5,267 nt of DNA from a bacterium (lineage in GTDB: Bacteria > Krumholzibacteriota > Krumholzibacteria > LZORAL124-64-63): positions 1 to 5,267 of the forward strand of contig QNDV01000212.1 in the NCBI GenBank assembly GCA_003646045.1, read 5' to 3'. This document shows positions 785 to 5,091 of the stretch, piece after piece. The stretch's first letter is position 1. Every line of letters begins with the position of its first letter. The notes beneath the pieces were generated by a model. The model did not search any database. It saw only the letters and a program-made list of their open reading frames with translations, and was not told where the DNA came from. The translations under genes and the position numbers were made by a program.

Positions 785-1441
785 TCAGCGGTATAAGACC
801 TTCACGGCCGAGAAGCTGACCTCGGCGTCAGCCACCTCGCCGTTGCACAGATTGATATCCCCGGGCGTCGGCGGACAGCCTGTGGAGCCGGGCTCCAGGC
901 TCCCGCTGTAGGGATTCAGTCCGTCGTAGAGTACCCACCCGCCCTGGTTGGTATCCCAACCACTGGAGCGATCGTCATCCGCGGTGTGGGAAAGATAAGT
1001 CACCGTGTCCACCGCCTCGGTGGCCAGGGGATCGCTGCCCGCCACCGTACGCAGCAGCACTACCGTGTCGCCGCCATTGTTCAGGCTCAGGGCACTGCCC
1101 GACAACCCCGTGGCGTCCTGCCATGCTTCGGCGTCGCTGCCGAAGAACACCGCGGTGGCTCCGGGGACCAGCAGGCCATCCAGTTGCATGCGTGGTGCGG
1201 CGGCGGCGTCATCCTTGAGCCAGTATTCGGCCAGATCCACCGCCGCGGAGCCCTGGTTGAGCACCTCGACCCATTCGTCGGACCGGGTATCCACGGTACC
1301 ATCGCCGTCCCAATCCCGGGCCGGGTCGGCCAGGATCTCGTTGATTACCACCTGGGCAGCCGCCGGTCGGGTTGCGGCCGGACAGGACAGCAGACCGACT
1401 GCGAGAACCAGAACGGTCCCCGACATGAGAATTCGTTTCAT
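785..1441 (-). CDS. Exported lamin-tail-domain (LTD) protein
   Basis: The product is a 218-residue secreted protein of unknown function carrying one lamin tail domain, an immunoglobulin-like beta fold common in bacterial surface and extracellular proteins. Residues 1-29 look like a signal peptide: MKR, a hydrophobic core VLVLAVGLL, then PAAA before QVV, suggesting signal peptidase I cleavage after Ala29. LLSC at 17-20 is a weaker lipobox alternative. The LTD spans about 31-150: VVINEILADP at the start, DEWVEVLNQGSAAVDL (55-70), LVPGATAVFFG (91-101) and the hallmark LSLNNGGDTVVLL (118-130). DWDGDGTVD at 43-51 resembles a calcium-binding EF-hand-like or dockerin-like loop. The tail has two cysteines (189 and 199), which could form a disulfide, and ends in AVKVLYR. 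The ATG at 1441 was chosen because AAGG sits five to six bases upstream and the signal peptide starts there. A longer frame reaching 1612 would begin inside a terminator and is rejected. Confidence 0.9.
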   Translation of the reverse strand: MKRILMSGTVLVLAVGLLSCPAATRPAAAQVVINEILADPARDWDGDGTVDTRSDEWVEVLNQGSAAVDLAEYWLKDDAAAAPRMQLDGLLVPGATAVFFGSDAEAWQDATGLSGSALSLNNGGDTVVLLRTVAGSDPLATEAVDTVTYLSHTADDDRSSGWDTNQGGWVLYDGLNPYSGSLEPGSTGCPPTPGDINLCNGEVADAEVSFSAVKVLYR

Positions 1442-1512
1442 GATGACCTTCAAACCGGGAGGTGGACTGTGGAGGGTTTGCGGTGCCCCCGATTGCCAGA
1501 ACCGTGCCGCCG

Positions 1513-1579: not shown

Positions 1580-1620
1580 AAAGTAAAACCGGGCAACGCC
1601 GGATGACGGCATTGCCCGGT
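1580..1620 (-). terminator. Rho-independent terminator after the aminopeptidase gene
   Basis: On the minus strand ACCGGGCAATGCC (1620-1608) pairs over 13 positions with GGCGTTGCCCGGT (1600-1588) around a seven-base loop, followed directly by TTTTACTTTC. One position is a U-G wobble in the minus-strand RNA but an A-C mismatch in the plus-strand RNA, and the T-run is only on this side, so the element works for minus-strand transcription. It would end the kinase, regulator and aminopeptidase transcript. It starts 93 nt after the first stop of the aminopeptidase frame but only 21 nt after the second, which supports the second stop as the ancestral gene end. Confidence 0.92.
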
Positions 1621-1641
1621 CAGAACACGCTGCGGTGTGGT

Positions 1642-1716
1642 CTATCCCGCCAGGATCCTCTCGATACCGCCGCGGGCGATGGGATGGTAACCCGCGGCAT
1701 GGGCCGCGAAGGTCTA
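1642..1716 (-). other. In-frame amber codon followed by the conserved aminopeptidase C-terminal tail
   Basis: The aminopeptidase frame hits TAG at 1716-1714. Continuing in the same frame gives 23 codons, TFAAHAAGYHPIARGG followed by IERILAG, then a second TAG at 1644-1642. This tail matches the usual end of the leukotriene-A4-hydrolase family. In human LTA4H, recalled from memory, RTYQEHKASMHPVT aligns with *TFAAHAAGYHPIA without gaps: T, Y/F, H, A, H, P and V/I agree, and the stop falls at an arginine. Homology beyond a stop codon is seen directly. Whether it reflects nonsense mutation, a base-calling error, readthrough or amber recoding is undecided. A single C-to-T change from CAG or an A-to-T change from AAG would explain it. 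The full product would be 589 residues. Confidence 0.8.
1669..1698 (-). other. GC-only hairpin 15 nt downstream of the in-frame amber codon
   Basis: GCCGCGGG and CCCGCGGC (1669-1676 and 1691-1698) form a perfect eight-pair, all G-C stem around a 14-base loop. In the minus-strand mRNA it starts 15 nt after the TAG at 1716-1714 and lies within the conserved C-terminal tail coding sequence. Structures placed just after a stop codon can favour readthrough, but Ala, Gly and Arg codons in GC-rich DNA also produce such stems by chance. The structure itself is clear and its role is speculative. Confidence 0.45.
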
Positions 1717-3411
1717 CGCCGCCAGGGCGCGGGTCTTTTCGCCGGCGTGCAGCGCCGTATAGAGGGGCTTGAGGTACTTCATGCGGCCCACCTCGGCCAC
1801 CATGGCCGCCGCCCGCTCAAAGGACGGTTCGTAGCCGCTGTTCACCGCGATCACCAGCCAGTTGCTGAGGATCTCGCTGTTGCCCTGGCCCGTGAGTTCG
1901 AAGTTCTTGTCCAGCCAGGCACAGTCCGCGTGGGAAAGTTCCTTGGGCAGGGCCTGCAGGAAGATCTGCCAGTCCTCGGGGGTCCAGGCCTTTGCTTCCT
2001 GGACGTCGGGACGCGTCCCGCTCTCCCAGCCCCGGGCCAGGCTCTCGAGTTTCTCCAGGCGCGCCGAGGCGAAGACCGGAGCATTATCCGGCAGGCCCAC
2101 GTCGTGTATCCAGCGCTTCGTATCGACCTGCGCCGCCACGCCGGGCAGTTCGGCCTCCAGGAACTCCTCGAACTGAGCCGTCGTAATTGACGTAAATCCA
2201 AAGTGTTTGATGTATTTCTTCACAAACGCATCAAACTTCTCGACCCCTACCGTCTGCTCCAGCAGGGACACCAGCAGGAAACCCTTCTCGTAGGGCACCA
2301 GGGAGTAGAACTCGTCCGGGTCCTTGCCCTTGCCGTCGGTCAACAGGCGCGTGAACGGCGAGTCCTCGCCGAAGTCCGCTATGGCCTCTGTCAAACCGTT
2401 GCGACCGATGGCCGCCGACAGGGACTTGGCCTCGGCCCCTTCGAGATTCTCCAGGATCCGCCGCTCCGCCCACACGGTGAAGCCCTCGTTGAGCCAGAAG
2501 TCGTCGATGGTGGCGTTGGTCACCAGGTTCCCTGTCCAGCTGTGGGCCAGCTCGTGGGCAAGCACATTCACCAGCGAGCGATCACCGGCCAGCAGGGTGG
2601 GCGTCAGGAAGGTCAAACGCGGATTCTCCATGCCGCCGTAGGGAAAACTGGGCGGCATCACCAGGAAATCGAATCGATCCCACAGGTAGGGACCGAAGAT
2701 ATCCTCGGCGGCCAACAGCATCTTGTCCACGTCGGCGAACTCCCAGGCCGACTTCTCCAGCATCTCCGGTTCGGTGTAGACGCGAGAGCGAGGGCCCAGA
2801 TCCTGCGAAACCAGGTTGCCCACGGCCAGGGCAAAGAGGTAGGGGGGAATGGACTGGGGCATGGAGAAGGCGAAGGTACGCGTCCCGGGATCAGCGCCCG
2901 GTCCGGCCTCTCCCGGCGCCGCCGCCATGACCACAGTCAGGGCCTCGGGCACCGTTATCCGCGCCTTGAAGGTGAAGCGGGCCAGGGGCGTGTCCTGGCA
3001 GGGTATCACGCTGCGGGCGTGAATGGCCTGGCACTGGCTGAACAGGTAGGGATGCTCGCCACCCGCAGTCATGGCCGGTTCGAGCCACTGCAGGGCGCTG
3101 GCCTCGGGACCGGTGGCGTAGTGCACCACGAAACTGTCGGTGTCCGCAGGCAGATCCAACCGCAGGCGCGAGCCCAGCACCGGGTCGAGATCACCCAGAT
3201 CCCAGGAAACGTCATTCCCGTCTGCGGTAACCCGCTCGATTTCCAGACCGCGGGAGTCAAGATCCAACGGACCGGTGGTGGGTGCATCCAACTCGAATTC
3301 GGCACGGCCCCGGATACGGGAAGTGTCAAAATCGACGGTCAGATCCAGATCCAGGGACCGTACGCGACCCTGGCTTAAATCGGCATGGGAATGGGGATCG
3401 GGACAACTCAC
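1714..3411 (-). CDS. M1 family metalloaminopeptidase, leukotriene-A4-hydrolase type (C-terminus cut by in-frame TAG)
   Basis: This zinc aminopeptidase should remove N-terminal residues from short peptides in the cytoplasm; no signal peptide is visible. Residues 1-200 are the N-terminal beta domain with SQCQAIHARSVIPCQDTP at 125-142. The catalytic domain carries PPSFPYGGMENP (253-264; substrate N-terminus binding), HELAH (286-290) with the third zinc ligand Glu309 after 18 residues, and YEKGF with proton donor Tyr374. The C-terminal helical domain contains GRMK (542-545), whose Arg543 and Lys545 match the carboxylate-binding Arg563 and Lys565 of human LTA4H. Asp366 and Tyr369 match human Asp375 and Tyr378. 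The GTG start at 3411 has a perfect GGAGG seven bases upstream, and the family fold begins soon after. The frame stops at 565 residues, but a further 23 family-like codons follow the TAG. The gene probably shares a transcript with the regulator upstream. Loss of the last helix may or may not abolish activity. Confidence 0.96.
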   Translation of the reverse strand: MSCPDPHSHADLSQGRVRSLDLDLTVDFDTSRIRGRAEFELDAPTTGPLDLDSRGLEIERVTADGNDVSWDLGDLDPVLGSRLRLDLPADTDSFVVHYATGPEASALQWLEPAMTAGGEHPYLFSQCQAIHARSVIPCQDTPLARFTFKARITVPEALTVVMAAAPGEAGPGADPGTRTFAFSMPQSIPPYLFALAVGNLVSQDLGPRSRVYTEPEMLEKSAWEFADVDKMLLAAEDIFGPYLWDRFDFLVMPPSFPYGGMENPRLTFLTPTLLAGDRSLVNVLAHELAHSWTGNLVTNATIDDFWLNEGFTVWAERRILENLEGAEAKSLSAAIGRNGLTEAIADFGEDSPFTRLLTDGKGKDPDEFYSLVPYEKGFLLVSLLEQTVGVEKFDAFVKKYIKHFGFTSITTAQFEEFLEAELPGVAAQVDTKRWIHDVGLPDNAPVFASARLEKLESLARGWESGTRPDVQEAKAWTPEDWQIFLQALPKELSHADCAWLDKNFELTGQGNSEILSNWLVIAVNSGYEPSFERAAAMVAEVGRMKYLKPLYTALHAGEKTRALAA

Positions 3412-3488: not shown

Positions 3489-5081
3489 TCATGCAGTGGC
3501 GACGCGGGTCGCCTGCGACTGGTCAGTGTCGGGGTGAAGCGCAACCACTTCCCGGAAGCGCTTCAGGTTGGCCAGGAAGAGATCAACCAGGCGCGGATCG
3601 AAATGCCGCCCCCGCCCGGCCCGCACCACCCCCACCACTTCGTCCAGGGGACAGGCCTTGCGGTAGACACGTGGACTGATCAGGGCGTCGAAGACATCGA
3701 CCAAGGCCGTGATCCGACCCAGCAAATGGATATTCTCGCCGGCCAAACGCCGGGGATACCCTGTCCCGTCCCACCGCTCATGGTGCTGCAGGGCGATGGT
3801 GGCGGCGGCCTGCATGATGCGCCTCCCGCTCTTGGCCAGGATGGCGTGGCCGATGGAGGTATGGCGCTGCATGATCCGGTATTCATCGTCCGTCAGGCGT
3901 CCGGGCTTGTTGAGAACCGCGTCGGGAATACCGACCTTGCCCACGTCGTGCATGGGTGCCGCCAGACGCAGTAAAGACACCTCGTCACGATCCAGTCCGG
4001 CCAGTTCCCCCAGCAGGCCGGCCATCTCCCCCACCCGCAACACGTGGTGGGCGGTCTCGCGGCTGCGGGTCTCCACCACTTCACTGAGAGTGTGGATCAT
4101 CTCCTTCTGGGACTCGATGATCTCCATTGACAGATGGGCGTTGCGATAGGCCATGTCCACGCCCGACATGTAGATGCGGATGAGGTCCTGCGGCAGGGGC
4201 CGGCGCTTGAGTCCGCTGCAGAGATGCAGCAGCATCTCTTCGCCCCCCTCGCCGCGGCAGCATCCGACCCAGCTGTTGTTGTAGAACAGGGAATGGGTGC
4301 GGACCATGGCTTCGCGAGCCATGCGCAGGGTCCGCTGCCCCACCGCCGCCGCGAGGGGCCCACCTTCCTGTCCCGCGAATTTGCCTCGCCCCGCCACTAC
4401 CGCGTAGTCACCGCCGTCGCGGCAGGCCACCAGGCCGGATATGGACGACGAGTCCGGCATCGCCAGATGCACCAGCGCATCCAGCACACCCGTGGCGAAA
4501 TCCTCACGGGACTGCCACCGAAAGAAGGCCCCCTGGGCCCGGATCACCCGTTGCAGGCCCTCGCGCCCCTGCTCCACGGCGCACAGATCACGCCAGGAGC
4601 GCAAGGCACTGGTCACGGAGGTACAAAGGCGGGCGGCGGTAAGCTCGGTCTTGCTGCGATAGTCGTTGATGTCGTACTGGGCCACCACCTCCTGTTCCGG
4701 CGCCTGACCCGGCTGTCCCGTGCGCAGGATGATCCTCACCTTGCGGTTGCCCTGTTCCTGCCGGATGTGCCGCACCAGCTGCAGACCCGCGTCTTCACGC
4801 TCCATGACCACGTCCAGCAGGATCACCGCGATATCGGGGTTGCGCCGCAATTCACGGCGGGCGGCCACACCGGAATAGGCGCTCACCAGTTCCACCGGCG
4901 CTCCCTCGAAGGTGAAATCGCGCAGAACGATGCGGGTGACCAGGTGCACATCCTCCTCGTCGTCCACGATGAGCAGTTTCCAGGGCTCACGGTGTTCATC
5001 CGCGGCAGGCGCCGGCACGCGTTCCCGGGCCAGGAGCAGTGGGTCACCTGGCAGGGGCTGGTGTTCGCGGGGCCTAATCAC
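3489..5081 (-). CDS. Response regulator with REC, DUF3369 and HD-GYP domains (predicted c-di-GMP phosphodiesterase)
   Basis: This two-component response regulator should hydrolyse cyclic-di-GMP when phosphorylated by its partner kinase, in the cytoplasm. After a 34-residue leader, the REC domain spans about 35-165: acidic pair Asp40/Asp41, phospho-acceptor Asp90 in VILLDVVME, Thr121 in LRTGQPGQAPE and Lys144 in YRSKTEL. Residues about 170-330 are the DUF3369 linker that typically joins such REC and HD-GYP domains. The HD-GYP domain (about 333-510) keeps AHHVLRV (344-350), HDVGKVGIP (378-386), the metal-binding His407 in QRHTSIGHAIL, HHERWDGTGYP (433-443) and DVFDAL (462-467), so catalysis looks intact. 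The GTG at 5081 is preferred because GAGG lies six bases upstream. A TTG two codons earlier (5087) would abut that site. The start overlaps the kinase stop by 8 nt. Residues 274-275 are an unusual Cys-Cys pair in DUF3369. The output of the pathway is unknown. Confidence 0.96.
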   Translation of the reverse strand: MIRPREHQPLPGDPLLLARERVPAPAADEHREPWKLLIVDDEEDVHLVTRIVLRDFTFEGAPVELVSAYSGVAARRELRRNPDIAVILLDVVMEREDAGLQLVRHIRQEQGNRKVRIILRTGQPGQAPEQEVVAQYDINDYRSKTELTAARLCTSVTSALRSWRDLCAVEQGREGLQRVIRAQGAFFRWQSREDFATGVLDALVHLAMPDSSSISGLVACRDGGDYAVVAGRGKFAGQEGGPLAAAVGQRTLRMAREAMVRTHSLFYNNSWVGCCRGEGGEEMLLHLCSGLKRRPLPQDLIRIYMSGVDMAYRNAHLSMEIIESQKEMIHTLSEVVETRSRETAHHVLRVGEMAGLLGELAGLDRDEVSLLRLAAPMHDVGKVGIPDAVLNKPGRLTDDEYRIMQRHTSIGHAILAKSGRRIMQAAATIALQHHERWDGTGYPRRLAGENIHLLGRITALVDVFDALISPRVYRKACPLDEVVGVVRAGRGRHFDPRLVDLFLANLKRFREVVALHPDTDQSQATRVATA

Positions 5082-5091
5082 GGGCAACCTC
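5074..5091 (-). promoter_or_regulatory. Overlapping stop/start (GTGATTAG) and ribosome binding site linking kinase and regulator
   Basis: The kinase ends in TAG at 5076-5074, while the regulator begins with GTG at 5081-5079, in a different frame. GAGG at 5091-5088 lies inside the kinase gene, six bases before the GTG. This arrangement suggests translational coupling, keeping kinase and regulator amounts matched. Confidence 0.8.

Follow-up and report, generated by a model that had tools for sequence, protein, structure and literature searches.

Among described M1 enzymes, a cold-active aminopeptidase (PDB 3cia) and human LTA4H were compared with a gene on the minus strand (3411 to 1642) of a 5,267-nt stretch of DNA, hereafter the window, in which an M1 LTA4H-like aminopeptidase reading frame is interrupted by an in-frame TAG. 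Alignments covered residues 4–587 of an intact copy of this gene product (described below) against 3cia and residues 14–579 against human LTA4H, with the same domain order in both cases. The human enzyme shared the zinc site, the GMEN and GRMK motifs and an HP turn in the tail, and its R563 and K565 aligned with R543 and K545 of the window protein, which are retained before the TAG; this pair has a role in binding the carboxylate of the substrate, as described in PMC3405069. Unlike these two enzymes, the window copy is interrupted by a stop codon 24 residues short of its end.

The interruption can also be compared with pyrrolysine-containing and other amber-recoded genes. The likeness is an in-frame UAG with homology continuing past it, whereas the relatives of the window's organism had no PylS over the cut-off, possessed RF1 and carried a sense codon at the site, and the gene encodes an aminopeptidase and not a methylamine methyltransferase.

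The original prediction placed an in-frame TAG inside an LTA4H-like gene, and translation located it at codon 566 (Table 1). Gene order along the minus strand was the end of a sensor-kinase-like gene (a label judged from its sequence), a response regulator, the M1 aminopeptidase, a lamin-tail protein and, last, the beginning of an acyl-CoA dehydrogenase gene. With the second TAG counted as the end of the aminopeptidase gene, the stops ending the four genes were TAG, TGA, TAG and TGA, in agreement with the earlier count of two TAG among four; upstream of the aminopeptidase gene, TAG closes the frame at 5074. The second TAG did lie shortly before a terminator-like hairpin, as predicted, which starts 20 nt past it and has 15 pairs and a T-rich tail; the terminator scan found 2 sites compared to a mean of 1.4 in shuffles, and the call rests on the 15-pair stem and its place. 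No tRNAs or Rfam families were found in the window. The HD domain of the response regulator carries an HD-GYP-like motif, and several of its relatives bear the source name RpfG-family c-di-GMP phosphodiesterase. Relatives of the lamin-tail protein (best 120 of 164) included several with Krumholzibacteria names and a few with names from other phyla, and this family may be common in the Krumholzibacteria group.

Table 1. Positions of features in the window, with the basis for each assignment.
Feature	Position	Strand	Basis or remark
Response regulator, DUF3369 and HD domain	3489–5087	-	Family search; directly upstream of the peptidase
M1 LTA4H-like aminopeptidase, first 565 codons, GTG start	1717–3411	-	Pfam PF17900, PF01433, PF09127; translation; human LTA4H alignment
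In-frame TAG, codon 566; absent from every relative examined	1714–1716	-	Translation; homologue and orthologue comparison
23 conserved C-terminal codons: most of the predicted penultimate helix, YHPIA turn, predicted last helix	1645–1713	-	Translation, homologues, Pfam, model
Second TAG, natural gene end in relatives	1642–1644	-	Translation; 16 close orthologues
Intrinsic-terminator-like hairpin after the second TAG	1587–1621	-	15-pair stem, T-rich tail, place
Small lamin-tail-domain protein	785–1453	-	Just downstream of the terminator-like hairpin

In the window protein, the M1_N, M1 catalytic and LTA4H C-terminal domains all exceeded their Pfam cut-offs. The GGMEN, HELAH-(18)-E and GRMK motifs are all located within the first 565 codons, before the TAG. 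Residues H286–H290 with E309 (the HEXXH-(18)-E pattern of the zinc site) and G259–N263 (GXMEN) were present in the translation and invariant in an alignment of 25 sequences. When scored with TIGR02411 (LTA4H equivalog, cut-off 761.7), the intact copy reached 562.1 bits and the 565 residues of the window 546.7 bits; under NCBI's rule, the intact protein therefore does not count as an LTA4H equivalog. The C-terminal helical domain is incomplete in the window copy and is complete only if the TAG is read through, as PF09127 was matched over profile positions 1–90 of 112 (67.9 bits) without the tail and over positions 1–112 of 112 (92.5 bits) with the tail and X at the stop.

The 23 codons after the TAG encode TFAAHAAGYHPIARGGIERILAG and are followed by the second TAG. 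Because G+C content is ~65%, an open stretch of this length is unremarkable, and it is homology that counts. The claim that these codons match the family C-terminus was borne out by the PF09127 match, which ran to the last profile position, and by the 85%-identical homologue P0003, to which 22 of 23 tail residues were identical compared to 479 of the first 565. Relative to the nearest copy, P0002, the tail was identical at 23 of 23 residues and showed no decay. In the best 120 of 7998 homologues, Y, H, I and A of the YHPIA segment were kept in 120/120 and P in 119/120. Codon changes relative to 15 relatives (the partial L016 was omitted) looked alike in the tail and the body by inspection. Judged by sequence comparison, the tail is genuine sequence of the family. 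All 16 close genome orthologues stop at or beside the place that matches the second TAG, eight of them with TAG, and hairpins of varying strength were found 3' of the stop in each (16/16, no shuffled control).

The protein database contained an intact, near-identical copy. P0002 (589 aa, encoded on a 3646-nt contig) differed from the X-marked read-through product at only two residues: residue 1, where the GTG start codon is written as Met, and residue 566, where P0002 carries Glu. P0002 is the representative of a 3-member cluster and the comparison was made on this representative. The window's own lamin-tail protein (P0242) sits on a contig of 5267 nt, the same length as the window; the window is thus probably a complete contig, and the 3646-nt contig of P0002 is another one. 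The response regulator likewise had a copy, P0122 (representative of a 6-member cluster, on which the comparison was made), encoded on a 3510-nt contig, by its length again a different one, and identical at 529 of 530 residues, with the start residue alone differing. Past the starts, 1117 residues were compared (588 in P0002 and 529 in P0122), and the single difference was a stop. The near identity of both proteins suggests that the same or a near-clonal organism was assembled elsewhere with a sense codon at the site. Searches of plasmids found no near match to the gene, searches of viral contigs found no related locus, and the 21-base context of the TAG site had no match in any of the 78 loci examined.

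Homologues had ordinary residues at position 566, and the tail of the 589-residue read-through product aligned with them. In the best 120 of 7998 homologues (P0002 included), this residue was E in 85, R in 12, K in 12, D in 5, Q in 3, A in 2 and G in 1, with the qualification that the query contained the tail and intact matches were therefore favoured. The site had been described as variable and polar or basic, with Arg in human LTA4H, and both descriptions agreed with the alignments. None of these 120 proteins had UAG at codon 566, nor did any of the 16 close genome orthologues, which were 69–79% identical and included 7 Krumholzibacteriia and 1 Gemmatimonadales; only P0002 and a few proteins (82–85%) were closer. 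Codon 566 was a sense codon in all 16 (11 GAG, 2 GAA, 2 Lys and 1 Ala), and the hint of recoding found no backing in this comparison. Of 54 loci in genome contigs, 53 had their first stop beyond the tail's HP motif, and the remaining locus (L044) had no stop up to the contig end. Among the matches listed for the class of G004 (80 genomes), internal stops were found in 0 of 33 orthologues of at least 55% identity spanning the site, including the 16 close ones; one further match (G054, 61% identity) ended at residue 429, short of the site.

Related genomes held several other, distant M1 homologues. In the search of the class, a distant M1 homologue (G024:C2:37130-38881, 44% identity) had one TAA within the match. 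In at least five relatives (G012:C1, G003:C145, G007:C145, G009:C32 and G001:C169), a second, distant M1 homologue (28–31% identity) was located ~1 to 5 kb away from the LTA4H-like gene, on the opposite strand.

The genetic code of the lineage was examined through the 16 related genomes. PylS, for which a search had been suggested, was not found over the cut-off of its C-terminal model (TIGR02367, 178 bits) in any of them, and 15 of the 16 gave only sub-threshold matches of 21 to 27 bits; in the controls, 13 of 14 genomes gave matches and 1 of 14 exceeded the cut-off. RF1 was over the cut-off in 15 of 16 genomes, and in the other (G006) it was present as two pieces on two contigs. The presence of RF1, together with the use of TAG to end this very gene in half of the relatives, makes amber look like a working stop in the group. 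From these related genomes we infer that UAG terminates translation normally in the window's organism. The available portion of PMC12360541 mentions both Krumholzibacteriota and pyrrolysine, the latter only in the title of a reference.

The predicted effect of losing the tail was modelled using AlphaFold2 with alignments of 25 sequences (the target and 24 or fewer of the best 120 homologues). The intact model had a penultimate helix at residues 561–574 and a last helix at 577–588. Within the penultimate helix, the TAG falls at the sixth residue, such that five residues are kept and the rest of 561–574 and the last helix are removed. The two models had a similar core, with a mean pLDDT of 86.9 when the tail was included and 87.1 when it was omitted. 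The clearest drop was next to the missing part, at residues 531–565, for which block means fell from 92, 87, 93 and 95 to 83, 75, 84 and 79, the last block of the shorter model being only 5 residues. Without the tail, pLDDT also shifted in a few blocks elsewhere, e.g., from 81 to 74 at residues 251–260 and from 47 to 69 at residues 271–280. The loss of model confidence over 531–565 hints at damage, which is distinct from a demonstration of misfolding.

Overall, the TAG is very probably a private one-base change (a nonsense allele of recent origin, or else an error in the consensus) in an ordinary M1 aminopeptidase gene and without recoding, because the intact copy has Glu, the relatives have a sense codon or an ordinary residue, and the code of the lineage appears normal. 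TAG is one base away from GAG, the codon used by most close relatives, at a position that is Glu in the nearest copy, and the host would be a Krumholzibacteriia-like bacterium with an ordinary LTA4H-like M1 gene. Of the four options originally put forward, nonsense mutation and sequencing error survived, and programmed readthrough and amber recoding were left unsupported. Readthrough of the UAG in the strain, whether programmed or driven by a suppressor, would yield a 589-residue enzyme and is in keeping with the conserved and undecayed tail and with the several residues tolerated at the site, but we regard it as very unlikely: a conserved device would be expected in relatives too, those examined had no stop at the site, near-identical P0002 has Glu, and an undecayed tail would be just as expected if the change were very recent or erroneous. 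It is likewise highly improbable that an amber suppressor tRNA, or readthrough of a single recent UAG, gives the full-length enzyme, and the near-clonal neighbour has Glu. Reassignment of amber in the lineage, or its reading as pyrrolysine, would account for a UAG within a conserved coding frame, yet the absence of PylS over the cut-off in the related genomes, their RF1, and the TAG that ends both the same gene in eight relatives and the frame at 5074 in the window make it extremely improbable. That every catalytic motif precedes the TAG is what a naturally shorter gene form, with a 565-residue enzyme under selection, would predict; we give this reading very little credence, however, as the tail is undecayed, YHPIA is kept in the best 120 of 7998 homologues, intact P0002 exists, and the loss would cut into one predicted helix and remove another.

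With regard to the two forms that a private one-base change could take, we give a consensus error on the short contig about an even chance and a recent nonsense allele a little under that. The shortness of the contig, and the fact that the single difference in 1117 residues is a stop, lean slightly towards error, for which oxidative G-to-T damage of the library is a candidate cause; a nonsense allele of recent origin accounts for the data almost equally well. Should the base be real, translation would end at the TAG, and the resulting protein of 565 residues would retain the zinc site and R543/K545 but is predicted to lack the last helix entirely and the penultimate one for the most part. Such a form would probably be a damaged enzyme.

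These results provide a clean example of how, on a short metagenome contig, a single private base can mimic stop-codon recoding. The tests that bear on apparent recoding are the search for a near-identical copy that is intact, comparison of the codon across relatives, and a check of the lineage for RF1 and PylS. Whether the base is an error or a young allele, the biology would be ordinary. Given the several other M1 homologues in related genomes, loss of the LTA4H-like gene might be tolerated.
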